DNA of 64,000 bases, taken from positions 186,001-250,000 of the forward strand of contig NZ_JAHXBG010000010.1 of NCBI RefSeq assembly GCF_020103725.1. Direction: 5' to 3'. A program made the translations under genes and the position numbers. Every line of letters begins with the position of its first letter. Positions within the stretch are counted from its first letter, which is position 1. Below are positions 1-30,660 of this stretch, piece after piece. The notes under the pieces were generated by a model. The model searched no databases and was not told the DNA's origin. It was given only the letters and a program-made list of their open reading frames with translations. The stretch comes from Hyalangium gracile (GTDB taxonomy: Bacteria > Myxococcota > Myxococcia > Myxococcales > Myxococcaceae).

Positions 1-2
1 AG

Positions 3-1529
3 ACGCTGCGCGAGGAGCTGGCCTCGCTGCGCTCCCGCCTCCAGGGCTCCGAGGAGGCCTCCGCCCGCAGGTTGGAGGCCCGGCTGGGACAGCTCTCCCG
101 GGAGCTGCTGGCGGATCGGCTGGCGCTCTCCCAGGCCGTGAGCGGGCTGGACGAAGAGGTGCGACGCGCGCGGACCCTGCCCTTCGCGGAGGCCTGCGAG
201 GGGCTGGAGCGCACCGCGCGAGACGTGGCCCGCGGCGCCGGCAAGCAGGTGCGGCTGGAGGTGCATGGCGGAGCGCTGGAGCTGGATCGCTCGCTGCTCC
301 AGGGCCTGCGCGAGCCGCTGCTCCACCTGGTGCGCAACGCCGTGGCCCACGGCCTGGAGACGCCCGAGGAGCGCCGCCGCGCGGGCAAGCCGCCGGAGGG
401 GCGCATCAGCCTCGCCGCCAGGCTGTCCGGAGGCCGCGTGCAGGTGTCGGTGGAGGACGACGGGCGGGGGCTGGACCTCGACGCCATCCGAGCCCGCGCG
501 AGGGCCCAGGGGTGGGATGTCCCCGAGGGCATCGACGCCGCCCGGCTCATCTTCCGCCCAGGCCTGTCCACCGCCTCGCAGGTGACGTCCGTCTCGGGGC
601 GAGGCGTGGGGCTGGACGTGGTGCGCTCCCAGGTGGAAGGGCTCCGGGGCAGCGTGGATGTGTCCTTCCTGCCGGGCGCGGGCACCCGCTTCGTGCTGGA
701 TGTGCCGCTCACCTTGAGCACGCTGCGGGTGCTGCTGGTGAGCGCGGGCGGGCAGCAGTTCGCCCTCCCCGCCGAGAGCGTGGAGCGGCTGATGCGGCTG
801 GCGCCCACCGAGGTGCGCGAGGTGGAGGGACGGCAGGTCTGGGTCGCCCAGGACGTGCTGGTGCCGCTCACCTCGCTAGCCAGCGTGCTGGGCCTGCCCG
901 CCGGGGTTCCGCGCGCCCGCCTCGCCACGGTGGTGCTCGCCTCGGGCTCGCTGCGCGTGGCGCTGGGCGTGGACGAGGTGCTGGCCGAGCAGGAGGTGCT
1001 CGTCCGCGGGCTGGGTGCCCGCGTGCGCCGGGCCCGCCACGTCTCCGGCGCCGCGGTGCTTCCCGACGGGAAGATGGCGCTCCTGCTCCACCCCGCCTCC
1101 CTGATTCGCATCGCCGAGGGCCTGCCCCACGCCAGCCTCTTCCCCGCGCCCACCGCGCGCCGGGCCCGCCAGCGCATCCTCCTGGCGGATGACTCGCCCA
1201 CGACGCGGGCCCTGGAGCAGAGCCTGCTGGAGGCCGCGGGCTACGAAGTCCTGGCGTGCGCGGACGGCGCCGAGGCCTGGGAGCGGCTGCAGCGCGTGGG
1301 CGCCGACGCGCTCGTCACCGACGTGGAGATGCCGCGCATGGACGGCTTCGCCCTCACCGAGGCGGTGCGCACCTCGCCGCGCTTCTCGCGGCTGCCCGTG
1401 GTGCTCGTCACCGCCAGGGACAAGCCCGAGGACAAGACGCGCGGCCTCGAGGTGGGCGCCAGCGCCTACCTGGTGAAGAGCGCCTTCGATCAGACGAACC
1501 TGCTGGAGACCTTGAGGCGACTGCTATGA
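3..1529 (+). CDS. cheA: CheA-type hybrid histidine kinase with C-terminal receiver, 5' end cut off by the window
   Basis: Open from the left edge with no stop, so the N-terminal part, including any Hpt domain, lies outside. Visible domains in order: helical dimerisation segment, CheA-type ATPase (N box HLVRNAVAHG, then DDGRGLD and GRGVGLDVV), a CheW-like coupling domain, and a receiver starting RILLADDSPTTRA with phospho-acceptor Asp in ALVTDVEMPRMDG and Lys in YLVKSAF. CheA-receiver fusions occur in myxobacterial systems such as FrzE. The protein should autophosphorylate in response to a chemoreceptor and pass phosphate to its own receiver or to the downstream CheB. Its stop overlaps the cheB start as ATGA, so the two are translationally coupled. 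The pathway output cannot be told from the sequence. Confidence 0.93.
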   Translation, partial: TLREELASLRSRLQGSEEASARRLEARLGQLSRELLADRLALSQAVSGLDEEVRRARTLPFAEACEGLERTARDVARGAGKQVRLEVHGGALELDRSLLQGLREPLLHLVRNAVAHGLETPEERRRAGKPPEGRISLAARLSGGRVQVSVEDDGRGLDLDAIRARARAQGWDVPEGIDAARLIFRPGLSTASQVTSVSGRGVGLDVVRSQVEGLRGSVDVSFLPGAGTRFVLDVPLTLSTLRVLLVSAGGQQFALPAESVERLMRLAPTEVREVEGRQVWVAQDVLVPLTSLASVLGLPAGVPRARLATVVLASGSLRVALGVDEVLAEQEVLVRGLGARVRRARHVSGAAVLPDGKMALLLHPASLIRIAEGLPHASLFPAPTARRARQRILLADDSPTTRALEQSLLEAAGYEVLACADGAEAWERLQRVGADALVTDVEMPRMDGFALTEAVRTSPRFSRLPVVLVTARDKPEDKTRGLEVGASAYLVKSAFDQTNLLETLRRLL

Positions 1530-2587
1530 ACGCCAACCTGCCCAACCCGCTGCGAGTCGTGGTGGCCGAGGACTCGCCCACCGCCCGCCGCCTGCTGGTG
1601 GAGATCATCCGCGCCGACCCGGGGATGCAGGTGGTGGGCGAGGCCAGGGACGGGCTCGAGGCGGTGGAGCTCACCCAGCGGCTGCGCCCCCACCTGGTCA
1701 CCATGGACATCCAGATGCCGAACATGGATGGGCTGCAGGCCACCCAGCGCATCATGACGGAGGTGCCCACGCCGGTGGTGGTGGTGTCCACGCTGGTGGA
1801 GCGCGACATCCAGACGTCCATGGCCGCGCTGCGCGCCGGAGCGCTCGCCGTGCTGCAGAAGCTGGTGGGCCCCGAGTCCCCGGACTTCGAGCGCGAGAGC
1901 CGCCACCTGCGCGACACGCTCAAGGCCATGGCCGTGGTGAAGGTGGTGCGCCAGTGGCCCCAGCGCGGGCGGGTGTCCACCTCGCTGCCTCCCGTCACAC
2001 CCGTGTCGAGGACCCGGCCCTCGGTGCTGGCCATCGCCGCCTCGACGGGCGGGCCCGCGGCGCTCCACCGCATCCTCTCGGGGCTGCCGGAGAACTACCC
2101 CCTGCCCATCCTCGTCGTGCAGCACATCGCCCTGGGCTTCGCGGAGGGCATGGCGCAGTGGCTCGACTCCGTCACACCGCTGGAGGTGAAGGTGGCCAGC
2201 GAGGGCGAGCTGCTGAAGCCGGGCACCGTCTACATCGCCCCGGACGATCGGCACCTCGGCGTCACCTCGGAGGGGCGGGTGCAGGTGTCGAACGCGGCGC
2301 CCGTGGGGGGCTTCCGGCCCTCGGGCACCTGGCTCTTCCGCTCGGTGGCGCGCGCCTACGGCTCCAGCGGCATCGCGCTCATCCTCACCGGCATGGGCCA
2401 GGACGGCCTCGAGGGCGTGCGAGAGCTACGCCAGGCCGGTGGGCGGGTGCTGGCGCAGGACGAGGCCACCTCCGTCGTCTACGGCATGCCCGGAGTGGTG
2501 GTGGGCGCGGGGCTGGCCGACGCCGTGCTCCCGCTCGACGGCATCGCCGCCCACGTGAGGGAGCTGGCCGCTCCGGCCGCGGGCTGA
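1526..2587 (+). CDS. cheB: Chemotaxis response regulator protein-glutamate methylesterase CheB
   Basis: 353 aa. An N-terminal receiver (VVVAEDSPTARR, Asp in HLVTMDIQMPNMDG) is followed by a linker and a CheB methylesterase domain with the expected catalytic set: Ser in AIAASTGGPAA, His in VVQHIALGF and Asp in LTGMGQDG. It removes methyl groups from receptor glutamates to reset adaptation. It begins inside the stop of the preceding CheA hybrid (ATGA). The last 109 bp overlap, on the opposite strand, the 3' end of the conserved hypothetical gene downstream. A second CheB belongs to the separate cluster at 18-28 kb, so the window holds two chemosensory systems. Confidence 0.95.
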   Translation: MNANLPNPLRVVVAEDSPTARRLLVEIIRADPGMQVVGEARDGLEAVELTQRLRPHLVTMDIQMPNMDGLQATQRIMTEVPTPVVVVSTLVERDIQTSMAALRAGALAVLQKLVGPESPDFERESRHLRDTLKAMAVVKVVRQWPQRGRVSTSLPPVTPVSRTRPSVLAIAASTGGPAALHRILSGLPENYPLPILVVQHIALGFAEGMAQWLDSVTPLEVKVASEGELLKPGTVYIAPDDRHLGVTSEGRVQVSNAAPVGGFRPSGTWLFRSVARAYGSSGIALILTGMGQDGLEGVRELRQAGGRVLAQDEATSVVYGMPGVVVGAGLADAVLPLDGIAAHVRELAAPAAG

Positions 2588-16102: not shown

Positions 16103-17992
16103 TCACCCCGCCTGAAGGCCGTGCGCGCGCCACGGCAGGTGCACGCTGAAGGTCGTGCCGTGAGGGTCCATCGAGGACACGAGGATCCGCCCACTGTGCG
16201 CCGTGACGATCCGCTCCGCGATGTACAGGCCGAGGCCGAGCCCCTCGGACTTCCGCCCACCGCTGCTCTCCCCCCGGATGAAGGACTGGAAGATGCGAGG
16301 GAGCAGCTCCGCCGAGATGGGCGCTCCCTGGTTGTGGATGCTCAGGACGCACTCACCCTCGCGGGCCTCGACCCTCACGTCCACGGGGCTGCCGGCGGGG
16401 CTGTGGTTCAGGGCGTTGCTCACCAGGTTGGCCACCACCTGGGCCAGCCGCGCGGCGTCCCACACCCCTTGCAGGGACTCCGGTAGCTTCAGGTGGATGT
16501 CGCGCCCGGGGTGCGCGGCGCGATGCTCCTCGACCACCTGGAGGATGATCGCGTGCAGATCACACGGCTGCGGCTGGATGGGAATCCCTCCCCCGAGCCG
16601 CGCCCGGGTGAGGTCGAGCAGATCCCGGATGATGCGGCTGGCGCGCTCGGTCGCGGCGTTGATGACATGCACCTTGCGCAGCAGCTCCGGATCCCTCAAG
16701 CGCTGCGAGAGCAGGGTCGTCGCGAAGGAGATGGCGCTGATGGGGTTGCGCAGATCGTGGCCCACGATGCCCACCAACCGCTGCTCGAGCTCCATCATCC
16801 GGGAGGACTCCTGCTCCTGGTGTTTGCGCTCGGAGATGTCCCGCAGCGTCCCCACGGAGCGCTCCGCCGCGCCCCGCGCATCCCGGAGGATGCGGCCCTG
16901 CACCGCCACCCAGCGCTCCACCCCATCCTCCGCTCCCACCGTGCGGAACTCGTCCTGGTACACCGCCTGCCCCGGGGCGGCCAGGGTGGACTCGATGTTC
17001 GCGATGACGCGCGGGCGATCCTCGGCGTGCAGCGCCGCGCTCAGGGACGCGCGATCCAGGGCCTGCTCGGCTCGCAGGCCCAGCAGCGCCCGGGAGCGGC
17101 TGTCACACGTCAGCTCGCGGCGCCTGGCGTCGTAGTCCCACGTCCCGATGTCTCCCGCCGCGATGGCCAGCCGCAGCCGCTCCTCGCTCTCACGCAAGGC
17201 CTGCTCCGCGCGGACCTGCGCCGTCACGTCTCGCGCGATGCACAGCACCGACGTCACCTGCCCCTGCTCATCCCGCTCCGGGACGAGGCGGGAGTGGAAG
17301 TGGCGCCGCAGTCCGTCCGCGGCCACGAAGTCGAAGCTCATCGACGTCTCGCTCCCTCCCAGCGCGGTGTCGATGGCGGCGCTCCAGCTTTGGACCAGCT
17401 CGGGCGGCATGCCGAGCTCGGCATTCGTCTTCCCGATGAAGTGGAAGCTCGGGATGCCGCCGAGGCGGGTGATGCCCGGGCTGACGTAGAGGTGCCGGTG
17501 CTGGGTATCGAAGCGCGACACCACGTCCGGGAGGTTCTCCGCCAGCCGGCGGAACTGCAGCTCGCGCTCGCGCACCTCGGCCTCGGCCCGGAGCGCCCGC
17601 TGGTGGTTGCGGCGCAGCCGCGCCAGCCCGTTGGCTCGGGCCGCGAGCTCCGCGGCGGCATAGGGCTTGGCGAGGTAGTCGTTGGCGCCAGCGGACAGGC
17701 CCTCGACGATGTCCGCGCTGGTGTCTCGCGCGGTGAGCAGGAGGATCGGCAGCTTTGCAGCGTCCCACTGCTGGCGCACGAAGCGGCAGATATCGAGCCC
17801 CGATGAGCCAGGCAACATCCAGTCGAGCACGACGACATCCGGCAGGGACCCCAGCGACAGCCGCTCGAGGAAGGAGGGCCCGTCGCGAAAGGCCGCGACG
17901 TCACAGGAGCCCGCCAGGGAGCGCTGAATCGCGGCGGCCTCCATGGGGCTGTCATCCACGACCCAGACGATGTAGCGCTCTGAGAAACTCAT
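16103..17992 (-). CDS. Hybrid histidine kinase: receiver-PAS-PAS-HisKA-HATPase
   Basis: 629 aa from the ATG at 17992; a TTG at 18007 is the alternative, and neither has a strong ribosome site. The N-terminal receiver (IVWVVDDSPMEAAA, acceptor Asp in VVVLDWMLPGSSG, Lys in YLAKPYA) precedes two PAS domains (about residues 155-275 and 290-400). Then comes HisKA with His412 in VGIVGHDLRNPISAI, the TRARLGGGIPI motif shared with other kinases here, and HATPase (LVSNALNHSPAG, GLGLGLYIAERIV). An N-terminal receiver suggests that another kinase controls this one. It points tail-to-tail at the pirin gene. The 267 bp upstream hold short inverted repeats (for example ACCC-N7-GGGT near 18.10 kb) but no convincing promoter. 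Confidence 0.92.
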   Translation of the reverse strand: MSFSERYIVWVVDDSPMEAAAIQRSLAGSCDVAAFRDGPSFLERLSLGSLPDVVVLDWMLPGSSGLDICRFVRQQWDAAKLPILLLTARDTSADIVEGLSAGANDYLAKPYAAAELAARANGLARLRRNHQRALRAEAEVRERELQFRRLAENLPDVVSRFDTQHRHLYVSPGITRLGGIPSFHFIGKTNAELGMPPELVQSWSAAIDTALGGSETSMSFDFVAADGLRRHFHSRLVPERDEQGQVTSVLCIARDVTAQVRAEQALRESEERLRLAIAAGDIGTWDYDARRRELTCDSRSRALLGLRAEQALDRASLSAALHAEDRPRVIANIESTLAAPGQAVYQDEFRTVGAEDGVERWVAVQGRILRDARGAAERSVGTLRDISERKHQEQESSRMMELEQRLVGIVGHDLRNPISAISFATTLLSQRLRDPELLRKVHVINAATERASRIIRDLLDLTRARLGGGIPIQPQPCDLHAIILQVVEEHRAAHPGRDIHLKLPESLQGVWDAARLAQVVANLVSNALNHSPAGSPVDVRVEAREGECVLSIHNQGAPISAELLPRIFQSFIRGESSGGRKSEGLGLGLYIAERIVTAHSGRILVSSMDPHGTTFSVHLPWRAHGLQAG

Positions 17993-18259
17993 ATGAATGG
18001 GGCACAAAACAGCGGGTGTCGAGCCAGCCCCCCTCTCGAGTGCCCGCAGCGATGAGCATCCCCGCAGCGGTAGCTGTTACCATAAGTGGAGTACCCATTC
18101 ATCGGGTGCAACACAATCCAGTGTTTCATGCGCTGGAACGCATCAGGCGCGCGGCGGCTCGACGCGGCGCGGCCACGAACGGGCGCACGCTCGGCGGAAC
18201 GGGCCAGGGGCAGGCAGCGGGTCAGCCGCCCCCCACCCGCCCTTCGAGCCTGCTCCGGC

Positions 18260-19297
18260 TCACCGCACGTAGCGCTCGATGAGCGCCGCCATCTCGTCGA
18301 GCGGAGCCCTGTCATCCGAGAGGCCCGCCTCCGCCACCGCCCGAGGCATGCCGTACACGACGCAGGACTCGGGCGACTCCGTCAGCACGCGTCCCCCCGC
18401 CCGGCGGATGGCACGCGCGCCCGCCAGCCCATCCTCCCCCATGCCCGTGAGCACCACGCCCACCACGTCCGAGCCCCAGCCCGCCGCCGCGCTCTCGAAG
18501 AGCACGTCCACCGACGGGTGATGGGGGGCCTGCAGCGGCGCCCGGCTCAGCCGCACCCGGGCCTGCTCTCCGTCCCGCTCCACCCGCAGGTGCATGCCCG
18601 CCCTCGCCAGCACCGCCCGCCCGGGCCTCAGCGCCAGGCCATCCGCCGCCTCCAGCACCTCCAGCGGGCTGTAGGTGTCGAGCCGCCGCGCCAGCGCCTC
18701 CGTGTAGCCCGCGGGGATGTGCAGCGCCAACGCCAGCGGCGCCGGAAAGTCCGCGGGCAGCGACAGCAGCAGCTTCGTGAGCGCCGCCGGGCCTCCCGTG
18801 GAGGTGCCCACCACCACCAGCCGCCGCGCGAGCTCCGTCTGCGGCGAGGCCATGGGCTTCTCCGCCGGCCGAGGCTCCGGTGCCGTGCGCACCCGAGCCC
18901 CCGCCGCCGTGCGCACCTTGGCCACCAGCTCCGCGCCCAGCTCGTAGAGCCTGTCCGTGGCCAGCGCCGTGGGCTTGTGCACCAGCTCCACCGCCCCCGC
19001 CTGGAGCGCCGCCACCGCCAGCTCGCTCTCCTCGCCCGCGCTGCTCACCACCACCACGCGCGGCGAGGCCGCTCCCGCCAGCGCCTTCAGCACCCCCAGC
19101 CCGTCCAGGCCCGGCATCACCAGGTCCAGCGTCACCACGTCCGGGCTCAGGGCGGCGATCTTCTCCAGCGCATCCAGCCCGTCGCGCGCCGTGTCCACCA
19201 CGGTGATGCCCGCCGCCGCGGAGAGCACCTGCCGCAGCACCTTGCGCGCGAAAGCCGAGTCGTCCACCACGAGCACGCGGATGGGTACGTCCGTCAC
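18260..19297 (-). CDS. cheB: Chemotaxis methylesterase CheB (last gene of the chemosensory operon)
   Basis: 345 aa. GTG start at 19297 overlaps the cheR stop (GTGA). Receiver (VLVVDDSAFARKV, Asp in VVTLDLVMPGLDG) plus methylesterase with Ser in VVGTSTGGPAA, His in ALALHIPAGY and Asp in LTGMGEDG. The His motif reads LHIP where many CheBs have QHMP, but the catalytic residue is kept. With CheR it sets the methylation state of the soluble receptor encoded three genes upstream. Divergent enough from the CheB at 1526 to belong to a separate system. Confidence 0.95.
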   Translation of the reverse strand: MTDVPIRVLVVDDSAFARKVLRQVLSAAAGITVVDTARDGLDALEKIAALSPDVVTLDLVMPGLDGLGVLKALAGAASPRVVVVSSAGEESELAVAALQAGAVELVHKPTALATDRLYELGAELVAKVRTAAGARVRTAPEPRPAEKPMASPQTELARRLVVVGTSTGGPAALTKLLLSLPADFPAPLALALHIPAGYTEALARRLDTYSPLEVLEAADGLALRPGRAVLARAGMHLRVERDGEQARVRLSRAPLQAPHHPSVDVLFESAAAGWGSDVVGVVLTGMGEDGLAGARAIRRAGGRVLTESPESCVVYGMPRAVAEAGLSDDRAPLDEMAALIERYVR

Positions 19298-20118
19298 GGT
19301 CCCTCCTTCGGACGGGTGTAGAAGAAGGCGCCCCGCCGCTCCTCGCAGTTGAGCGCGGTGCCGAAGCGCAGCAGGGACTCGGAGGTGCCCACCACCAGGC
19401 TGCCGCCGGGCACCAGCGCGCGCGTGAGCGACTCCGCCACGCGACGCGCCGTCTCGTCCTGGAAGTAGATGAGCACGTTGCGGCAGAAGATGACGTCGAA
19501 GGTGCCCAGCGCGGAGATGGCCTCCGCGTCCACCAGGTTCACCCGCCGCCAGTCCACCGCGGCCACCAGCTCCGCGCGGACGCGCGGCCGACCGTCCACG
19601 ACGTCCAGGTAGCGCCCCTCGATGCCCACGGGCAGCGCCCGCATCGAGCGCAGGTTGTGCTCGCCCGTCCGGGCCCGCTCCAGCACGCGCTGGCTGTAGT
19701 CCGTGGCCAGCAGGGACACGCTGTCCAGCACCCCGCGCTGGTGGAGCATCATCGCCAGCGTGAGGGGCTCCTCTCCGGTGGAGCAGGCCGCGCACCAGAG
19801 CCTCGGCCGCCGCCCCAGGCGCACGGCGAGCGCCACCTCGTCCGCAATCACCTCCAGCGACAGCGGATCCCGGAAGAAGTACGTCTCGTGCACCAGCAGC
19901 GAGTCGACGAGGGCGTCCAGCGCGGCCGACCCGTCCGGGTCGTACCGGAGGAAGTAGTAGTAGTCGAGCAGGGACTCGAACCCCGCCTCCAGCGCCCGCG
20001 CGGACACCTTGTCCGCCAGGAGCTCCCGGTCATCGGCCTCATAGTGCAGCCCCGCGCGCTGCTCGATGAGCGCGGCGAGGATGGCGAAGACCTGGGGGGA
20101 CAGCGGCAGCGAGGGCAT
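19294..20118 (-). CDS. cheR: Chemotaxis receptor methyltransferase CheR
   Basis: 274 aa. An N-terminal helical domain (VFAILAALIEQRAGLHYEAD) precedes the SAM-dependent methyltransferase domain with motif I LWCAACSTGEEPLTLAM and motif IV FDVIFCRNVLIYF. No TPR extension. Methylates glutamates of the MCP. Both ends overlap neighbours by four bases, within an unbroken coupled operon. Confidence 0.95.
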   Translation of the reverse strand: MPSLPLSPQVFAILAALIEQRAGLHYEADDRELLADKVSARALEAGFESLLDYYYFLRYDPDGSAALDALVDSLLVHETYFFRDPLSLEVIADEVALAVRLGRRPRLWCAACSTGEEPLTLAMMLHQRGVLDSVSLLATDYSQRVLERARTGEHNLRSMRALPVGIEGRYLDVVDGRPRVRAELVAAVDWRRVNLVDAEAISALGTFDVIFCRNVLIYFQDETARRVAESLTRALVPGGSLVVGTSESLLRFGTALNCEERRGAFFYTRPKEGP

Positions 20119-22472
20119 CAGCGACTCAGCGCGAGGAGACAGGCTCGCCGGACCTCGGGGTCATCATCCTGGGCAGCGGTCTTCTCGAGCAGCTCGCGCG
20201 CCTCCACCGTCCCCAGCGCCGCCACCGCCGTGGCCGCCGCGCGCCGGCCCGCGGGGCTGCTCGAGCCCAGCGCCGTGAGCAGGGCCGCGCGCGCGTCGGC
20301 GCGCTGCATCCGCGCCAGCGCCGCCACCAGCAGCGGCGCCACCGCCTCGTCCGCCGCCTCCAGCGCCGTGAGCAGCCCGGGGATGCGCCCCTCGGCCGGC
20401 AGCGCCAGGGCGCTCACCACCCGCTCACGCAGGGCCGGGTCTCCCAGCAGCGACACGAGCGCCTGCGTGGCGCTCGTCCCCGAGCGGGTGGCCAAAAAGC
20501 CCACCGCCGCGCTGCGCACGCTCTCGTCCGGGTCGCCCGCCGCGCGCAGCAGGGCCGTCACCGTCTCTGGCGCGTCGTACTCCGCCACCGCCGAGAGGGC
20601 CACCAGCCGCGTGGCGGGGTCCCCCTGCGTGGCGGCCTCGAGCAGCACGGGCAGGGCATCCGGGCGCTTGGAGACGCCCAGCCCCAGCAGCGCCGCGCGG
20701 CGCACGTCCGAGTCCTCGGAGGCGGCCGCGCGCCGCAGCGCCGCCATGGCACTCTCGGTGTGCAGGTGGGCCAGCGCGTCCACCACCGCCACGCGCACCT
20801 GGCCCGCGTCGTCGTTGGCCAGCGCGACGATGGCGTCCGCGGCGGCCTCCTCGTTCAGCTTCCCCAGCGACTGGCACGCGTAGTAGCGCACCCACGGGTC
20901 CTTGTCGTTGAGCCCGCCCAGCAGGCACGAGGTGACGCGCGCCTCCTTCTCCGTCTGGCCCAGGGCGCGCATGGCCGCCGCGCGCGTGCGCTCCGAGTCG
21001 TGGCGCGAGGCCTCCAGCAGCGCGTCCACCGCGCGCGGATCATCGATGAAGGGCAGGCCGTAGATGGCCGCGTCCCTCAGCCGCTCGTCCTGCTCGCGCA
21101 TGGCCTGGAGCAGCACGTCCAGCCCGCGGGGATAGCCGAAGTAGGAGATGATGCGCAGGGCCGCGCGGCGGCGCCGGGGGTCCGCCGAGCGCGCCGCGGC
21201 CAGGGCCAGCTCCTCCGTCTGCTCGCTGCCGAGCGACTGGATGGCGCCCACCGCCGCCTGCGCCACCCGCTGGTCCTCGTCGCCCAGGTGCTCGAAGAGG
21301 GCGCTCACGGCCGACGGGTCTCCAATGCGGGAGAGGGTGTCCGCGGCCAGGGACCGCACCGTGGGGTCTCTATCCTCCAGGCACAGCACCACCTCCGGCA
21401 CCGCCGCGGAGCGCCGGGCCACCAGCGGCAGCAGCACCAGCCGCCGGGCGCTGTCTCCGTCGCGCAGGGCCTGGAGGATGGGGCCGTCCGCCTCCGGGCC
21501 CAGCTCCATGAGGGCGTTGGCCGCCGCGCGGGCCACCGTGGGCTCCGTGTCCAGCAGCGCCAGCAGCCCCGTGGCGGCGTCCGGTCCGCCCACCCAGCCC
21601 AGCAGCCGCGAGAGCGCCGCCTTCTCCGCCGCGTCCGCGCCCGACAGGCACCGGGCCAGCCGGCGCCCCAGGTCCGCGGTGCTCGCGCGCACGCGCAGCG
21701 CCGTCTGCACCACGCGCGTGCCGCCGAAGCGCTGCACCTGCGCCTCGTGGATCTCCACCAGCGCCACCGCCGCCACGCGCATCACCGCGTCCGTGCCCCG
21801 CTGCAGCAGCCCCACCAGCGCGGGCACCGCGGCCTCCTGGCCGGTGCGCCCCAGGGCGCGCGCCGCCTCGGTGGCGTAGAAGGGGTCTCCCAGCAGGTCC
21901 AGCAGCGCCGGCACCACGGAGGGGTCGCCCGAGCGGCCCAGCACGTCGATGGCGGGGAAGATGCGGAAGAAGTTGCCGCTGCCCAGCGCCGCCAGCAGCG
22001 CGTCCACCGCGGCGCCGCCGCCAATGCGGCCCAGCGCCTCGATGGCGGCCACGGCGACGTTGTCGTCCGGGTGCAGCGTCAGCTTCGCCAGCAGCGGCAC
22101 GGCGCGCCGGCTGCGGCGCCGGCCCAGCACCTGCGCCACGTCACAGACGACGGCGGGGTTGGCGTCCTCGCCGAGCGCGATGACGCACCCGTCCACCTCG
22201 CCCGTGGAGGCCACCAGCGCCTCGACGATGGCGGCCAGGCGGGCCTCGTTGTCGCGCCGGTGCTGGAGCAGCTCGCACAGCGGCTCGACGGCCGGGGTGC
22301 CCATGCGCGCCAGCGCGCCGATGACGGCGCGGCGCACCGCCCAGCTCGGCGTCTCCAGGTCCACGATGAGGAACTCCAGGCTGGAGGCGCCACGGCGGGC
22401 GAGCGCCTCCACCTCCTCCACGCGGGAGCGGTCCTCCGAGGACAGAGACAGCGGATGGCTGGGGGCTCTCAC
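20118..22472 (-). CDS. HEAT-repeat (PBS-lyase-like) protein of the chemosensory operon
   Basis: 784 aa from the GTG at 22472, which overlaps the MCP stop (GTGA) and has GGAG upstream; the longer TTG/ATG-type start at 22514 would cut 46 bp into the MCP gene. Almost the whole length is tandem 30-residue HEAT repeats of the PBS-lyase type (for example [29 protein letters not shown]), more than 20 by eye, forming a superhelical protein-binding scaffold. No lyase or other catalytic motif. HEAT proteins are not core chemotaxis parts; from memory M. xanthus Che7 has a HEAT protein (Cpc7) acting at its output. A scaffold or output partner is the likely role. Confidence 0.88.
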
Positions 22473-25015
22473 GCCTGCTCCACCGCGCGGGCCGACTTCC
22501 CCTCCGGCCTCCACGCGCCTCTCAAGAGCCCGCTCAGCCGCGTCAGGTGCTCCACCTGCTCGCCCTGCATCCGCGACAGCTGGGTGATGCGCGTCGTCAC
22601 CTCGCGCACCTCCCCGGCGGTGCTCGCCGTGCCGCGCGCCTGCTGCGCGGTGGTGGCGGCGATCTCCCGGGAGCGGTTGCGCATGTCCTCCACCGCGCGG
22701 GCGATCTGCTCGGTCATCGCGGCCTGCTCCGTGGAGGCCTTGGCCACCGCCGACACGGCGGCCACCTGACGGCTGGAGGAGGCGGTGGTGGCGTTGAGCA
22801 CCTCGGCCTGCTCGTCCAGCGCGCGCGACGTCTGCTTCGCCACGCGGCGCACCTCCTCGCCGCTGCGCGACAGCAAGGTCAGCGCCTGGCTCTGCTCGTC
22901 GGTGGCGCGCGTCACCTCCGCGGCCAGCTTCGCCACCTGGCGGGCGGCCGTCTCGCTCTGCTTCACCGCCCGGCCCTGCTCGGTGACGGCCTTGGCCACG
23001 TGGGACACCTGCTTGCGCGTGTCCTCCATGGCCCGGGCCACCTCGCCGGCGGCCTTGGCCTGCTCCGCCAGGCCAGCCAGGGTGCGCTGGGTGAAGGTCG
23101 ACACCTCCTGCGCGAGCGCGGCCACGCCGGCCACCTCCTTGTTCTGCGCCACCACCGCCGAGCTCACCTGGTGCACCAGCGCGCGCATCTGCGTGGCCGT
23201 CTTCGCCAGCTCTCCGGCCGCCGAGGCCTGCTCCTGCATGGCGCGGGACACCTGCTCGGCGGACGCGGCGAGCTGCCCGTTGGAGCGCACCGCGTCCCGG
23301 AGCGCGCGCGCCTGGTCCACCGTGGCCTGCGTCGTCTGCTTGGCCATGCGGCGCATCTCCGCCGCGCCCTGCGCCAGGGACTGCGCCGCCTGCGCCTGCT
23401 CCGTGGCGGACGCGGTGATGAGGCGGCCCTGCTCGCTCACCCGGCCGGTGGCCTGCGAGAGCGCCTGCACCGCCTGCACCTGCTCGTTGGTGGCGCGCGA
23501 CACCTCGCGCACCGTCGTGCCCAGCTCGTCCACGCCCTTGAGGATGGCGCCCAGCGCCCGCTCCGCGTCGGCCGCCAGCGAGGCGCCCTCGTCCGCCGCG
23601 CGCACGCCGTCGCCGGTGGCCGCAGCCGCCTCGCGCGCCGTGTTCTGCAGGCCCCGGACGATCTTCGCCACGTCCGCGCTGGCCGCCGCCGCCCGGTCCG
23701 CCAGCGCGCGGATCTCCTCGGCCACCACCGCGAAGCCGCGCCCGTGCTCGCCCGCGCGCGCCGCCTCGATGCTGGCGTTGAGCGACAGCAGGTTGGTGCG
23801 GTCCGCGATGAGGTTGATCGTCTGGACGATGTCGCCGATCTCCTCGGCGCGCCGGCCCATCTCCTTCATCACCCCGGCGGACTCGGTGATGGACTGGCGG
23901 ATGCGGGTGAAGCCGGAGATGGAGCGGGCCACGGTGGCGCCACCCTCGCGGGCGGTGGTGCTGACGCGCTCACCGGTGGCGCGCGCCTCCTCGGCCATCT
24001 GCGCGATGCGCCGCGTGGACGTCTCCAGCTGGCCGGAGGACGTGGCGCTGACGGCGGCCAGGGTGTTGATCTGCTCGGCGCTCCGGGCCACCGTCTGCGC
24101 GGAGCGGGCCAGCTGCTCGATGGTGGCGGCGTTGGCGTCCACGGTGGCGGCGTTCTTCTCCGCGGTGGCGGCCACCTCCTCCACGCTGGCGGCCACCTCC
24201 GTCACGGTGGAGGCGGTGGAGGTGGCGGACGCCTCCAGGGTGCGAGCGTGCTCGGCCACCCCGCGCACGGAGCGGGCCACCTCCTCGGTGGTGGAGGCCG
24301 TCTCCTCCACGCTGGCGGCCATGCTGGTGGCGTCCCGGGACACCTCGCCCAGGGCCCGGCCGATGCCCACCACGGCCGTGGTCACCGTGGCCACGCGCTC
24401 GCCCACCCCTTGCGCGTCCGTGGCCAGCCGGGTGATGCCCTTGGACATCTCCTCCATGGTGGCGGCCACCTGCTCGGCGGCGGAGGCGCTGGTCTGGTTG
24501 CGCGCCACCACGTCCGTCACGGTGGCGTTCATCTGCGTCATCGTGGCCAGCAGCTCCTCGCTGGCGGCGGCCAGGTCCTCCGCGCTGGCGCTCACGCCCT
24601 TCACGGAGCGGGCCGTCTGCTCCAGGGTGGCCGCGATGTTGTCCGCGGAGGTGGACAGGGCGGCCCCGTCCTTGCGCACCGCGCCGATGGAGGCGGTCAG
24701 CTCCTGGATGGCCCCGGCCGTCTGCTCCACCTCCTGCTGCACGCTCCGGGCGGACTCGCTCACCGCGCGCTGCGAGCGCACCAGCGCCTGCACCGAGGCG
24801 GAGGTCTCCTCCACGCTGGCGGCCACGGCCTCGATGGAGGCCCGCACCTGCTCGCTGGCGGCGGCCTGCTCGTTGCCGTTGGCCATCAGCCGCGAGGCGA
24901 GCTGCTCCACCGTCTGCAGCACCCCGGCGCTCTCCTGCACCGAGCGGGAGGCGCTCTCGGCGAGCACTCGGGGATCCTCCACCGCCTGGGCGGCATTCAC
25001 GTTCTCAGTCGGCAT
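22469..25015 (-). CDS. mcp: Soluble methyl-accepting chemotaxis protein
   Basis: 848 aa with no membrane segment or recognisable sensor domain. Residues 20-385 and 445-830 are Ala/Ser/Thr/Val/Glu-rich heptad coiled coil that would pack into an extremely long antiparallel hairpin. The conserved tip is at about 390-440 ([20 protein letters not shown], then [20 protein letters not shown]), where CheA and CheW bind. The C-terminus lacks a CheR-tethering pentapeptide. Start at ATG 25015 overlaps the cheW end by 11 bp. A receptor made almost wholly of signalling hairpin must get its input from a partner protein; the coupled HEAT protein is a candidate. Confidence 0.93.
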
Positions 25016-25442
25016 GAACCTTCTCCTCCCCGATGACTCGGGAGAAATCGATGAGCATCACCAGCCGCGGGCCGAGCTGGGCCACGGCCTTCACGAAACC
25101 TCGCGCCTGCTCCGCCACCAGCGGGGGCGGCGGCTGGAGCTGCTCGGGCGCCAGCTTCATCACCTCGCGGGCGCTGTCCACCAGCAGCCCCACGGTGCGC
25201 GTGCCGAGCTGGCCCACCACCACGCGCGAGTCCAGCGTCCGCTCCGCGGCCGGCATGCCGAAGCGCGCCCTGGCATCCACCACCGGCACCACCCGGCCTC
25301 GCACCTGCACCAGCCCCGCCACATGCGGGGGCGCTCCGGGCACGGGCGTGGCCCCGGTGAAGGACTCCATCTGCAGGACTTCGGAGGCGGGGATGGCGTA
25401 CTCGGCCCCCGCAACCTTGAACACCACGTGGAGCGTGCTCAT
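25005..25442 (-). CDS. cheW: Chemotaxis coupling protein CheW
   Basis: 145 aa, a single CheW SH3-like domain ([18 protein letters not shown], then [20 protein letters not shown]), bridging receptor and CheA. ATG at 25442 overlaps the cheA stop (ATGA). Confidence 0.95.
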
Positions 25443-27499
25443 GCCACGCCTCCTCTCTGCGCCGGGCGCTCCGCGCGGGCAGCGCCTCCACGTGCCGCGC
25501 CCAGCGCGGGCAGGTCCAGCACCAGCGTGGGCTGACCATCTCCCAGGTCCGTGGCCCCCGCCACCCCGGGCACCTGGACGAGCGGATCCTCGAGCGGACG
25601 CAGGACGATCTCCTGCTGGCCGAGCAGCCGGTCGACGGCGAAGGCCACGGGCGTGCCGCGCTGCCGGACGACGAAGGCCTTGGGCCCCGGCGCCGCGCGC
25701 CCATCATCCCGCTGCAGCAGCCGCTCCAGGCGCACCAGCGGGACGGCCTGGCCCCGGCGCTCCACCAGCGTCACCCCTCCGTCGCCCAGCCCCGGGGGCC
25801 GGACGAGGTGGGCGGTGTCCACCTCGATGATCTCCTCCACCGCGCTCACCGGCACCGCGTAGCGCAGGGCGGCGCACTCGAAGACGAAGGCGTCCAGGAT
25901 GGTGATGGTGAGGGGCACGCACAGGCTGAACGTCGTGCCCTTGCCGGGCTGCGTCTCCAAGCTCAGCTCGCCGCCCAGCTGATCCACGATGATGCGCTTG
26001 ACGATGTCCATGCCCATGCCGCGCCCGCTGGTGGCGTTCGCGGAGGCGCGGGTGGACAGGCCCGGGCGGCACAGCAGCTCCAGCAGCTCGGCGGAGGAGC
26101 CGGGCACGGGCACCCCGGCGCGCGCGGCCACGGCGGCCACATCCACCCCGCGCCCGTCATCGCTCACGGTCAGCTCGAGCCGCCCGCTGGTGCGCGCATG
26201 GCAGGCCAGGCGCACCACGCCCTCCTCGGGCTTGCCCGCGGCGCGGCGCTCGTCGGGCCGCTCCAGGGCGTGGTCCATGGCGTTGCGCACCAGATGGACG
26301 AGCGCGGGCAGCAGCCGGTCCGCCACCGCCTTGTCCAGCTCCGCGTCTCCCACGTCCATCACCAGCCGCGCCTGCTTGCCGGTGGTGCGGCGCAGCCCTC
26401 GCAGCAGCAGCGGCATGCGCTCCAGCACGTCGCCCACGCGCACCATGCGCAGGTGGAGGATGGCGGCGCGCAGATCCCTCAGCTGGCGCGCGTTCTCCTG
26501 GAGCACCTGGACCAGCTCGCGCGTGGGAGCCCCGGCCGCGGTGAGCTCCGCCACGGCGCGCGCCAGCTTCGAGCGGTTGACGACGAGCGCGGCCAGCCGC
26601 TCCAGCGCCTCGTCCAGGCGGGACACCTCCACGCGCAGCACGCCAGCACGGCGAGGCTCGGCGGCCGCCCGCTCCTCCTCGAAGAGGGACGACTCGTCGG
26701 GGAGCGCCGAAGCCGCGGGGGCGGGAGCAGGCTCGGCCGGAACGGACGAGAGCGGCGTCACCTTCGCGGGAGGGCCGCCCACCGCCTCGAGCAGCACCGC
26801 GTCCTCCGTGCTCGTGAGCAGCAGCAGCGCGAAGGTGAGGTTTCCCGCCCCCGAGGTGGGGCCCGCCACGGGGATGACCTTGACGATCTCCGCGAGCTTG
26901 CCCAGGCGCTCGCGCACGGTGTTGATGGTGAGGCCGGCGGCGGCGCGCTCGGCCGAGGGAACGTAGTCCAGCCGGATCGCCCGGCGGCCGCCGTTCACGC
27001 CCGCCAGGAGCTGCTCCTGCTCGGACGTGGAGAGCTTCGCGGCGAGCGTGGGCTCCAGCTCCAGCCTCGCGGAGGCGGTCTGGGTGCTGGCGCGTCCCGG
27101 GGCGTTGAGGTCCAGGGCCTCCAGCCGCTCCAGCAGCGCCCGGGGCACCTCCGCGATGGGCTTGCCCAGGGCGAGCTGACGCACGCGCTGCTCGATGGCG
27201 CGCAGGCCCTCCATCAGCGGCTCGATGCTGGACTCGGGCAGCCGCCCGCCGGCGTGGTCCGCCTGACGCAGGGCCGTCTCCATCCAGTGGGCGATGGAGA
27301 CGATGGTCTCCACGTCGATCATCGCCGACAGGCCCTTGATGGTGTGCAGGGCGCGGAACAGCTCCCGCACGTGGCGAGGGCTGGCCGAGCGCTGCCGGGC
27401 GGCCGTCTCCAGCGCCAGCAGGTGGGTGTTCGCGGCCCCGAGCAGCTCCTCCACCTCGGTGAGGTAGGCGGGGAGGAAGTCCGCCAGATCGACGCTCAA
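25439..27499 (-). CDS. cheA: Chemotaxis histidine kinase CheA
   Basis: 686 aa, TTG start at 27499 overlapping the stop of the CheY-like gene. Hpt domain with His52 (ELFRALHTIKGLSAM), a poorly conserved P2 region, dimerisation helices (RLDEALERLAALVVNRSKLA), ATPase (LVHLVRNAMDHALERP, DDGRGVD, GRGMGMDIV) and a C-terminal CheW-like domain. No fused receiver, unlike the hybrid at the left edge; phosphate should go to the single-domain receiver just upstream and to CheB. A variable Ala/Pro stretch lies near residues 250-270. Confidence 0.96.
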   Translation of the reverse strand: MSVDLADFLPAYLTEVEELLGAANTHLLALETAARQRSASPRHVRELFRALHTIKGLSAMIDVETIVSIAHWMETALRQADHAGGRLPESSIEPLMEGLRAIEQRVRQLALGKPIAEVPRALLERLEALDLNAPGRASTQTASARLELEPTLAAKLSTSEQEQLLAGVNGGRRAIRLDYVPSAERAAAGLTINTVRERLGKLAEIVKVIPVAGPTSGAGNLTFALLLLTSTEDAVLLEAVGGPPAKVTPLSSVPAEPAPAPAASALPDESSLFEEERAAAEPRRAGVLRVEVSRLDEALERLAALVVNRSKLARAVAELTAAGAPTRELVQVLQENARQLRDLRAAILHLRMVRVGDVLERMPLLLRGLRRTTGKQARLVMDVGDAELDKAVADRLLPALVHLVRNAMDHALERPDERRAAGKPEEGVVRLACHARTSGRLELTVSDDGRGVDVAAVAARAGVPVPGSSAELLELLCRPGLSTRASANATSGRGMGMDIVKRIIVDQLGGELSLETQPGKGTTFSLCVPLTITILDAFVFECAALRYAVPVSAVEEIIEVDTAHLVRPPGLGDGGVTLVERRGQAVPLVRLERLLQRDDGRAAPGPKAFVVRQRGTPVAFAVDRLLGQQEIVLRPLEDPLVQVPGVAGATDLGDGQPTLVLDLPALGAARGGAARAERPAQRGGVA

Positions 27500-27873
27500 C
27501 CGCGCCCCCGCTCCAGCAGCCCCTTCACCTCTCCGAGGATGGCGTCGGGAGTGAAGGGCTTCGTCATGAAGCGGTCGGCGCCGACCTCGAGGGCCCTGGC
27601 GCGCGAGGCCTCGTCCCCACGGGTGGTGACGATGACGATGGGCAGGTGGCGCAGCGTGTCCTGGCTGCGCACGAACTCCACCACCTCGATGCCGCCGATG
27701 TCCGGCATGTTCAGGTCGAGGATGATGAGATCATACGGCTTGAGGGACAGCCGCTCGATGGCCTCCAGGCCGCTGGAGGCATGGGTGAAGGCGAGCCCGG
27801 GGTAGGGCCGCAGGCAGGCCACCACCATGTCCCGCATCACCTTGCTGTCATCGACGACGAGTACTTCGGGCAT
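27496..27873 (-). CDS. cheY: Single-domain CheY-like response regulator (first gene of the chemosensory operon)
   Basis: 125 aa from the ATG at 27873, preceded by AGAGGA; the frame is open further upstream without protein character. Receiver residues: VLVVDDSKVMRD, acceptor Asp in LIILDLNMPDIGG, Thr in VIVTTRGDE, Lys in FMTKPFTPD. It heads a seven-gene minus-strand operon in which every junction overlaps. It is the likely phosphoryl output of this system. Confidence 0.95.
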   Translation of the reverse strand: MPEVLVVDDSKVMRDMVVACLRPYPGLAFTHASSGLEAIERLSLKPYDLIILDLNMPDIGGIEVVEFVRSQDTLRHLPIVIVTTRGDEASRARALEVGADRFMTKPFTPDAILGEVKGLLERGRG

Positions 27874-28890: not shown

Positions 28891-30660
28891 ATGAACTTCC
28901 GCCCCTGGATGGTCCTGTCCGCGCTGCTGCTCGTCGCCTGTGAGCCGGCGCCCGTCTCCCCGAAGCACTCCCAGCCGGTCGCCCCGCTGTTCGTGGTGTT
29001 CTCGCCTGGGCCCGTCACGGAGCTCCATGAGGAGTCCGTGCAGGTGTCTGGCCGGGTGAGGGCGGGAGGCGGCCTGCGCGAGCTCACCTGGCAGGCCGAT
29101 GACGGAGCGCCGCGGCCCCTCGCGTTCGAGCTGGATGCGATCGACCAAGCCTTCTCGTTCACGGTGCCCATGGCCGAGGGCGAGCACGTGGTGCGGCTGA
29201 GGGCGGTGGATGGCAACGACGGGGTGGGCTCGGCGACGATGCGCATCACCCGCTCGCCCGCGCCGGACACACGGGCTCCGGAGGTGCGGGTGCTCACGCC
29301 GACGGAGGGCCAGAGCGTCACCGTGAGGCGCGTGCGCCTGGAGGGCACGGCCACGGATGACCGGCGGCTGGCGTCGCTCACGTGGGAGCTCAACGGCGCG
29401 GTGGGACAGGCGGTGGATGTGGCGGCGCTGGGAGCTGGCGGGGCCTTCGCCCTCGAGGTGACGCCTCGCCCCGGCGCCAACGTGGTGGTGCTGCGCGCCA
29501 CGGATGCGAGCGGCCATACCACCGAGGCGACGGCCTCCTTCCACTTCGGCAGCCGGAGCGGCGGTGGCGGGCTGCACAGCGGCGTGGTGCGAGACGGCGC
29601 GCTCTACACGTGGGGCCGCAACAACCGGGGCCAGCTCGGCCTGGGGGCGGCGGTGACGGCGGACCAGAAGCTGCCGCTGCGGGTGCCGGGCTTCGAGGGC
29701 GTGGCCGCCATGGCCTTCAACCAGAACAGCTCGCTGGCGCTGAAGGCGGACGGCACGGTGTGGTCCTGGGGAGAGAATGCGCAGGGCCAGCTCGGCCTGG
29801 GCGCGCCGCCGGATGGGTCGCAGCCGCGCACGCCGGACCTCACGCCCCGCTGGAGCCCCACGCGCATCGCCGGCCTGAGCGGCGCGGTGGCCATCACCCT
29901 GGGCTACCGCCACGCGCTGGTACTGATGGAGGATGGCTCGGTGCGCGCCTTCGGCGACAACAGCACGGGCCAGCTCGGTGACGGCTCCTCGGAGAGCCTG
30001 AGGGACTACCCCGTGACGGTGGTGGGGCTGCCAGAGGTGGTGAAGGTGGTCGCCGGCTCCATGCACTCCGTGGCGCTCGGGCGCAATGGCACGGTCTGGG
30101 TCTGGGGCCGCAACACGTACGGCAACCTGGGCCAGGGCACCGTGGACAGCGCCTCCCACTCCACGCCGGCGCGGGTGCCCGGGCTGGAGAACGTGGTGGA
30201 CATCGCCACGGGGCGCGACCACGTGCTGGCGCTGCACGCGGACGGCACGGTGTCCTCATGGGGGCTGGATGCCAGCGGCCAGCTCGGCTTCGGCGAGGTG
30301 TTCCCCGACGAGGTGAGCGCCATGCCGGTGAAGGTGAAGGGGCTGACGGACGCGCGCGCCATCTTCGCCAACGGCAACATGAGCTACGCGCAGCGGGCGG
30401 ATGGCGCGCTCGTCTCCTGGGGGCAGAACTTCAACGGCCAGCTCGGCAATGGCGGCAAGACGGACGTGAACGTGCCGACGCCCTCCGTCCCGCTGCTGTC
30501 GGGGCTGCTCACCCTGGCGCCGGGCGCCACGCACGTCATCTCCATCCGGAAGGATGGGGCGCTCTTCGCCTGGGGCTGGAACGCCCGCGGCAGCCTCGGT
30601 CGGGATGATCTGCTGGACAACTGGTCCTACCCCGAGCCGATCCAGGTCACGCTGCCGTGA
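28891..30660 (+). CDS. RCC1-repeat lipoprotein
   Basis: 589 aa. Lipobox LLLVACE (Cys16). Residues 30-205 form two Ig-like beta domains (VQVSGRVRAGGGLRELTWQ; VRRVRLEGTATDDRRLASLT). Residues 215-585 hold about seven RCC1-type propeller repeats (LYTWGRNNRGQLGLG, VWSWGENAQGQLGLG, VRAFGDNSTGQLGDG, LFAWGWNARGSLGRD). RCC1 propellers bind proteins or ligands and have no enzyme signature. Downstream of a Fur-box-like site and coupled (GTGA) to the di-haem protein gene, so it is probably a surface component of an iron-responsive pair. Partner unknown. Confidence 0.9.
   Translation: MNFRPWMVLSALLLVACEPAPVSPKHSQPVAPLFVVFSPGPVTELHEESVQVSGRVRAGGGLRELTWQADDGAPRPLAFELDAIDQAFSFTVPMAEGEHVVRLRAVDGNDGVGSATMRITRSPAPDTRAPEVRVLTPTEGQSVTVRRVRLEGTATDDRRLASLTWELNGAVGQAVDVAALGAGGAFALEVTPRPGANVVVLRATDASGHTTEATASFHFGSRSGGGGLHSGVVRDGALYTWGRNNRGQLGLGAAVTADQKLPLRVPGFEGVAAMAFNQNSSLALKADGTVWSWGENAQGQLGLGAPPDGSQPRTPDLTPRWSPTRIAGLSGAVAITLGYRHALVLMEDGSVRAFGDNSTGQLGDGSSESLRDYPVTVVGLPEVVKVVAGSMHSVALGRNGTVWVWGRNTYGNLGQGTVDSASHSTPARVPGLENVVDIATGRDHVLALHADGTVSSWGLDASGQLGFGEVFPDEVSAMPVKVKGLTDARAIFANGNMSYAQRADGALVSWGQNFNGQLGNGGKTDVNVPTPSVPLLSGLLTLAPGATHVISIRKDGALFAWGWNARGSLGRDDLLDNWSYPEPIQVTLP

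Follow-up and report, generated by a model that had tools for sequence, protein, structure and literature searches.

The DNA analyzed here is a 64,000-nucleotide stretch of the Hyalangium gracile genome (11.7 Mb; contig NZ_JAHXBG010000010.1, positions 186,001 to 250,000), which we refer to as the window. It carries a chemosensory operon of seven genes that run head to tail on the minus strand at approximately 18260-27873, in the order cheY-cheA-cheW-mcp-HEAT-cheR-cheB, and all seven overlap their neighbors. We focused on the receptor of this operon, a soluble methyl-accepting chemotaxis protein (MCP) of 848 amino acids (aa) encoded at 22469-25015, and on the HEAT-repeat protein encoded behind it at 20118-22472 (784 aa from a GTG start; Pfam HEAT_2 in 10 stretches, E 4.3e-102). 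A preliminary description made from the letters of the window had placed these two genes at 20118-25015 and had them coupled by GTGA. Both genes are found there, and the coupling was read directly as a 4-base overlap at 22469-22472, but the operon is wider and extends from cheY to cheB. The cheY gene (27496-27873) encodes a single receiver domain of 125 aa (Response_reg, E 3.2e-26), the same length as CheY7 of Myxococcus xanthus. The cheA gene (25439-27499) begins with TTG and encodes 686 aa with Hpt, H-kinase_dim, HATPase_c, and CheW domains; a Pfam scan found no fused receiver domain, matching M. xanthus CheA7. The remaining genes are cheW (25005-25442; 145 aa; CheW, E 2.1e-33), cheR (19294-20118; 274 aa; CheR, E 2.5e-43; without a TPR domain), and cheB (18260-19297; 345 aa; CheB_methylest, E 1.5e-58, and Response_reg, E 7.9e-23).

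Judged by gene order and protein sizes, which match those of MXAN_6959-6965 and of a locus in M. xanthus AM003, this operon is the ortholog of the M. xanthus Che7 system, and its HEAT protein is the ortholog of Cpc7. The published Che7 proteins are CheB7 (348 aa), CheR7 (273 aa), CheW7 (148 aa), CheA7 (683 aa, without a receiver), CheY7 (125 aa), and Mcp7 (821 aa), which lacks both a transmembrane segment and a HAMP domain and has its signaling domain at residues 317-534 (PMC3945109). MXAN_6961, which is numbered between cheR7 and mcp7, is missing from the Che7 list in the available text of that paper. Cpc7 is reported to be a HEAT protein that controls development and has CheY7 as an interaction partner (PMC11514114, citing Darnell 2014). 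From the gene order, we infer that Cpc7 is the product of the gene between mcp7 and cheR7. All seven genes recur at the AM003 locus in the order found here, and its MCP and HEAT protein are 72% and 79% identical to those of the window. The two systems share a soluble receptor without HAMP, a CheA without a receiver, and a HEAT gene between mcp and cheR. We found no difference in kind between them; the published Mcp7 has 821 aa, compared with 850 aa for the AM003 ortholog, which has an earlier start. Because the operon is the ortholog of a published system, most of the surprise is removed. The system is already known; the receptor is still unusual.

To describe the distribution of the pair, we used 59 related genomes, the window's own included, on which the co-occurrence figures rest. 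A HEAT ortholog of at least 50% identity was present in 11 of the 59, and the same 11 held a full-length MCP ortholog. The remaining relatives gave generic HEAT and generic receptor matches only, or none. The complete seven-gene order was present in all 10 relatives read (the window's genome excluded), each with a 4-base mcp-HEAT overlap. In a phylum search, 50 of 195 genomes matched the HEAT protein strongly. Scanning named genomes yielded 45 loci, which come from Myxococcus, Corallococcus, Pyxidicoccus, Polyangium, Sorangium, and metagenome bins. The MCP gene adjoins the HEAT gene in 43 of these 45 loci, while the other two end at a contig edge inside the HEAT gene. In some named loci, the start codon chosen by our script yields a small mcp-HEAT gap in place of the overlap, and in one (L096) the HEAT frame is partial. 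HEAT genes are thus not absent from the orthologous operons, a possibility that the preliminary description had raised. The HEAT protein of Hyalangium versicolor (L076) is 92% identical to that of the window. Three records have titles that look wrong for their DNA, which may reflect mislabeling or transfer: “Comamonas sp. KCTC 72670” (L086) contains a Che7 operon whose proteins are 68 to 86% identical to those of the window, and two bins titled “Planctomycetota” (L098 and L106) contain one at 52 to 72% identity.

The preliminary description had characterized the receptor as lacking any membrane segment or sensor domain, and this was borne out by Pfam, hydropathy, and an AlphaFold2 (AF2) model, none of which showed either. 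MCPsignal is the sole Pfam match (residues 352-527, E 7.8e-43), with no match to HAMP or a sensor domain. No membrane segment was found, the highest 19-residue Kyte-Doolittle mean being 1.19. Residues 16-836 contain no proline, and Ala makes up 21.8% of the protein. Apart from a turn at residues 421-425, AF2 modeled the protein as all-helical (mean predicted local distance difference test [pLDDT] score of 62.8, which is low), and the model shows no sensor domain. The hallmarks of the MCP family are present, namely, the MCPsignal domain and a conserved signaling tip. This tip (residues 383-457; 23645-23869) is the most conserved stretch of the alignment and, by homology, the probable binding region for the kinase and CheW.

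The predicted hairpin has two long arms. They are somewhat longer than the approximately 380 residues first estimated, with about 386 in the N-arm (residues 37-422; 23750-24907) and about 408 in the C-arm (residues 427-834). With residues numbered modulo 7, V, I, L, M, and F together made up a fraction of 0.70 (phase 1) and 0.47 (phase 5) in the N-arm; in the C-arm, the same phases gave 0.55 and 0.40. Any other phase gave at most 0.24 in either arm. We read phases 1 and 5 as heptad positions d and a. Between the two arms, the phases satisfy i + j = 846, as expected of an antiparallel hairpin turning at residue 423. This corresponds to about 55 heptads in the N-arm and 58 in the C-arm, or roughly 113 for the whole hairpin, exceeding 64H, the largest of the published MCP profile classes, which start at 24H and likewise count the entire hairpin (PMC6943060). 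Among the genome's 24 receptors, the arm after the turn spans 140 to 188 residues in 21, 224 in one, 603 in one that has further sequence, and 425 in the Mcp7 ortholog. An alpha helix rises approximately 0.15 nm per residue, from which each arm would be about 58 to 61 nm long.

We then asked how well this length is conserved, using 54 MCP orthologs (52 distinct). Between residues 45 and 800, 48 of the 52 have no insertion or deletion relative to the window (the exceptions being L097, L103, L105, and L108), and even at approximately 50% identity the proteins are still close to 850 aa long. This conservation implies that the arm length is not due to chance. Together with the heptad register and the comparison to the genome's other receptors, it supports the exceptionally long soluble hairpin that had been proposed.

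Three observations count against this picture of the receptor. First, the model is a low-confidence monomer whose helix is broken near residues 172-176, 563-570, and 669-682, so helix continuity rests on the sequence register. Second, when each arm was divided into 11 windows of 35 residues, the best core phase departed from that of the arm in 2 windows of the N-arm and 3 of the C-arm; these 5 of 22 all fall within residues 317-566, near the tip and the canonical signaling region. Third, the core aligns without gaps around the tip to the Thermotoga maritima receptor 2ch7 (profile positions 325-556), which we take to be of class 44H. Mcp7 has nevertheless been placed in class 40H (PMC3945109).

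While examining the C-arm, we identified a regular pattern of glutamines. Stacked by 28 residues from residue 499, the arm forms twelve tandem four-heptad units (residues 499-834; 22514-23521), each with Gln at its fourteenth column. Positions 512 + 28k are Gln in 12 of 12 cases and account for 12 of the 13 Gln residues at C-arm d positions (hypergeometric p 1.5e-11, or 5.8e-11 after multiplication by the four offsets). The residue preceding this core Gln, at position c, is Glu in nine of the twelve units and Asp, Ala, or Gln in the other three. The pattern is conserved: at least 10 of the 12 rungs are present in 50 of the 52 orthologs and 9 in the remaining two, and among the first nine rungs, eight carry Gln in every ortholog. 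Compared with phase-preserving shuffles, the lag-28 autocorrelation of the C-arm gave a z of 3.3 for the window and 4.3 for the consensus. For the N-arm extension, the corresponding values were 2.2 and 3.3. The repeat architecture of Mcp7 goes unmentioned, and the word “coiled” is absent, in the available text of PMC3945109. Searches of an open-access library turned up no description of the ladder, although Darnell 2014 or Sharma 2018, the two most relevant papers, may contain one.

The longest run of Gln at 28-residue spacing in the genome's other 23 receptors was 1 to 3, save for a run of 4 in an McpJ-like transmembrane receptor (L001; G000:C31:56727-57272). This receptor belongs to the nearest paralog class by sequence. 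It has a Gln at +89 from the turn that recurs with the same 28-residue spacing and at the same offset, and its post-turn arm is longer than usual (224 residues). It differs in having two membrane segments and four rungs instead of twelve. Mcp7 and McpJ are reported to stem from a recent duplication (PMC3945109). Four rungs are what would be expected of an intermediate, which suggests that L001 may represent a step in arm growth. Another receptor frame in the genome (L019; G000:C9:148368-148907) continues for approximately 600 residues past the tip, where the locus end cuts it, without a 28-residue Gln ladder. M. xanthus McpK (1,048 aa) also has a further domain (PMC3945109).

By the published consensus for MCPs, where two Glu/Gln residues stand side by side, methylation falls on the second of them, at heptad position c (PMC6829392). 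We searched for adaptation sites with the motif [ASTG][ASTG]xx[EQ][EQ]xx[ASTG][ASTG], which matched 10 times in the Mcp7 ortholog, compared with 0 to 3 times in the genome's other 23 receptors. The N-arm has 7 full motifs, compared with 1.95 expected in phase-preserving shuffles, and only 4 of 2,000 shuffles reached 7. We defined conserved sites as those that are Glu or Gln in at least 90% of the orthologs and counted switches between the two on a tree of the HEAT proteins. At position c of the N-arm, 13 of 55 sites were conserved in this sense, with 66 Glu/Gln switches. Position b of the same arm had a similar number of such sites (14 of 55) with 10 switches, and position c of the C-arm had 14 of 58 with 8. 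The switching c sites lie at residues 105-329 of the N-arm; 43 of the 66 switches fall at residues 105-245, beyond the canonical region. We tentatively read the N-arm c sites as sites where Glu and Gln are interchangeable, as would be expected where CheB deamidates Gln. Alternatively, they may be neutral exposed positions that tolerate only Glu and Gln.

From these patterns, we infer a candidate ladder of adaptation sites along the arms. In its specific form, the receptor arms would be built of tandem four-heptad adaptation units, twelve of them in the C-arm, with putative methylation sites beside core Gln layers. We hold this form only tentatively and regard it as doubtful. Several results weigh on the other side. 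The C-arm motif count was unremarkable (3 compared with 1.02 expected; 160 of 2,000 shuffles reached 3), and two C-arm rungs have neither Glu nor Gln at position c (D567 and A623). An ordinary receptor family (L015; 21 sequences from 30 loci) served as a positive control but was uninformative. Its presumed methylation sites showed 0 to 1 Glu/Gln switches each, so switching is not established as a sign of methylation.

In a rival explanation, the long arms are a passive spacer. The Gln layers would keep the very long four-helix bundle straight and in register and would fix how far apart the two baseplates of a cytoplasmic array lie, and only the usual few sites near the tip would be methylated. 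The strict lack of insertions and deletions in 48 of 52 orthologs fits a mechanical constraint on length, and the invariant feature of the C-arm is the core Gln at position d, not the surface site. Cytoplasmic arrays elsewhere have two baseplates 27 to 35 nm apart (PMC3964821). However, a spacer fails to explain why N-arm c sites are held to Glu or Gln and yet switch between them (66 times), whereas b sites hold Glu (10 switches), nor does it explain the N-arm excess of full consensus motifs. We consider the spacer a serious candidate whose chances fall somewhat short of even.

The second component of the pair is the HEAT protein. AF2 predicted one solenoid of 50 helices with a mean pLDDT of 91.4. 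Conservation peaks in the first helices of repeats 2 to 7 (helices 3, 5, 7, 9, 11, and 13; 0.81 to 0.94) and around W527/Y530. Near-invariant residues within 105-245 and 520-570 include R118, R119, H134, D136, D137, N138, F168-F172, W527, and Y530. It is plausible that this conserved face is a docking face for a partner. A Foldseek search for a functional lead returned only generic HEAT solenoids. The eukaryotic solenoids CAND1, SF3b, PP2A-A, and the importins share the fold class (E of approximately 1e-12 to 1e-9), but TM-scores over the model were mostly 0.25 to 0.42 at 11 to 18% identity, from which no related function can be drawn.

The preliminary description had left open whether the HEAT protein supplies the input or carries the output. 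The second option is supported for the M. xanthus ortholog, and we found no evidence for the first. The HEAT protein is most likely an output component and not an input component, since its M. xanthus ortholog Cpc7 reportedly binds CheY7. A different role would be on the input side or as a scaffold: the protein would attach along the receptor arms and control the array, in which case it would not be a CheY target. The gene position directly behind mcp, with the 4-base overlap in 10 of 10 relatives, would suit such a subunit. So would the strongly conserved face of repeats 2 to 7 and the finding that close HEAT and MCP orthologs never occur apart in the 59 relatives. The overlap with mcp is not special, though, because all seven operon genes overlap. 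The reported binding of the M. xanthus ortholog to CheY7 (PMC11514114, citing Darnell 2014) also speaks against a scaffold role, and we judge that role unlikely.

Because the MCP has no sensor domain, the coil itself or a partner bound along it most likely senses the input. In the stricter version, the stability of the Ala-rich core would let the coil alone, with no partner, sense temperature, crowding, or small amphipathic molecules. Neither Pfam nor the model gave a sensor domain, and the Ala content is high. Bacillus subtilis McpB provides a precedent for sensing by the cytoplasmic part of a receptor (PMC7542364), and MXAN_6965 (CheY7) is said to matter for resistance to temperature stress (PMC9040617). 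On the other hand, FrzCD of M. xanthus shows that partners or DNA can feed input to soluble receptors (PMC12077210), and our data contain no direct evidence for a sensing coil. A partner-free sensor strikes us as quite improbable.

FrzCD is also a useful comparison in its own right. Like the Mcp7 ortholog, it is a cytoplasmic myxobacterial receptor without a membrane segment, but FrzCD has a DNA-binding N terminus and two HAMP domains (PMC12077210). Residues 1-36 of the MCP include 2 Arg/Lys and 5 Asp/Glu, counted by eye, and we rejected a FrzCD-like nucleoid tether on the basis of this net acidic N terminus. The MCP has no HAMP domain by Pfam, and the heptad register is kept along the arm. 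The HAMP domains of FrzCD were newly identified in 2025 (PMC12077210), so a missing Pfam match is weak evidence. Rhodobacter sphaeroides TlpT and the arrays of Vibrio cholerae resemble the present system in having a soluble MCP and cytoplasmic clustering and, for TlpT, a che operon of its own (PMC3964821). TlpT differs in size, with 567 aa (PMC3964821) and class 36H (PMC6829392), and the hairpin described here is approximately three times a 36H hairpin. No HEAT partner is described for TlpT in the available text of PMC3964821.

Taken together, we think it probable that the operon encodes a Che7 system in which a cluster of long-hairpin Mcp7 receptors acts through CheA7 and CheY7 on Cpc7, with arms that grew by unit addition and carry an adaptation ladder. 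At the tip of its hairpin of about 58 to 61 nm, soluble Mcp7 would bring CheW7 and CheA7 together in a cytoplasmic cluster. A cytoplasmic array is consistent with the one or two mobile clusters that Mcp7-GFP forms in M. xanthus (PMC3945109). By the standard CheA/CheY chemistry, CheA7 would phosphorylate CheY7, which in turn would act on the HEAT solenoid Cpc7 as a dedicated output and thereby influence the timing of development. Deletion of CheA7 in M. xanthus is published to cause motility and fruiting defects. CheA7 may also feed the orphan regulator MXAN_4468 (PMC9040617). The arms may have grown by tandem addition of a four-heptad unit from the adaptation region. CheR7 and CheB7 would then act on about a dozen sites, where only a few are usual, and receptor activity could be graded over many levels. 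The ladder may set the number of adaptation states, or it may merely set array spacing.

If the ladder has the specific form described above, which we regard as doubtful, one receptor dimer would offer several-fold the usual number of modification sites along approximately 50 nm. This could act as a graded, slowly written memory that is read out by CheA7-CheY7 to the HEAT protein during development. The cytoplasmic array would have baseplates 60 to 115 nm apart instead of approximately 30 nm, which is a direct prediction for tomography in a model organism. If the rungs carry functional methylation sites, the receptor would be a natural experiment on the usable number of adaptation sites and on the distance of coiled-coil signaling. 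The four-rung McpJ-like paralog suggests a route of arm growth.

A second chemosensory cluster begins immediately before the window and extends into it (window 1-2587; G000:C10:184732-188587, L065), approximately 16 kb from the Che7 operon. It encodes an MCP, a CheA that ends in a receiver domain (L065:9391-11529), and a CheB (window 1256-2587). The che6 (MXAN_6947-6952) and che7 (MXAN_6959-6965) clusters of M. xanthus are likewise neighbors (PMC3945109), and a second CheB match lies near Che7 in L057-L061. Directly downstream of cheB, the minus strand encodes a hybrid sensor kinase with receiver, PAS, and kinase domains (16103-18007). Relatives show only partial or opposite-strand kinase matches at this place, and we left the kinase out of the operon because no full-length ortholog is found there. 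On the other side of the operon, the plus strand encodes a 589-aa protein with RCC1 repeats and Ig-like domains (28891-30660).

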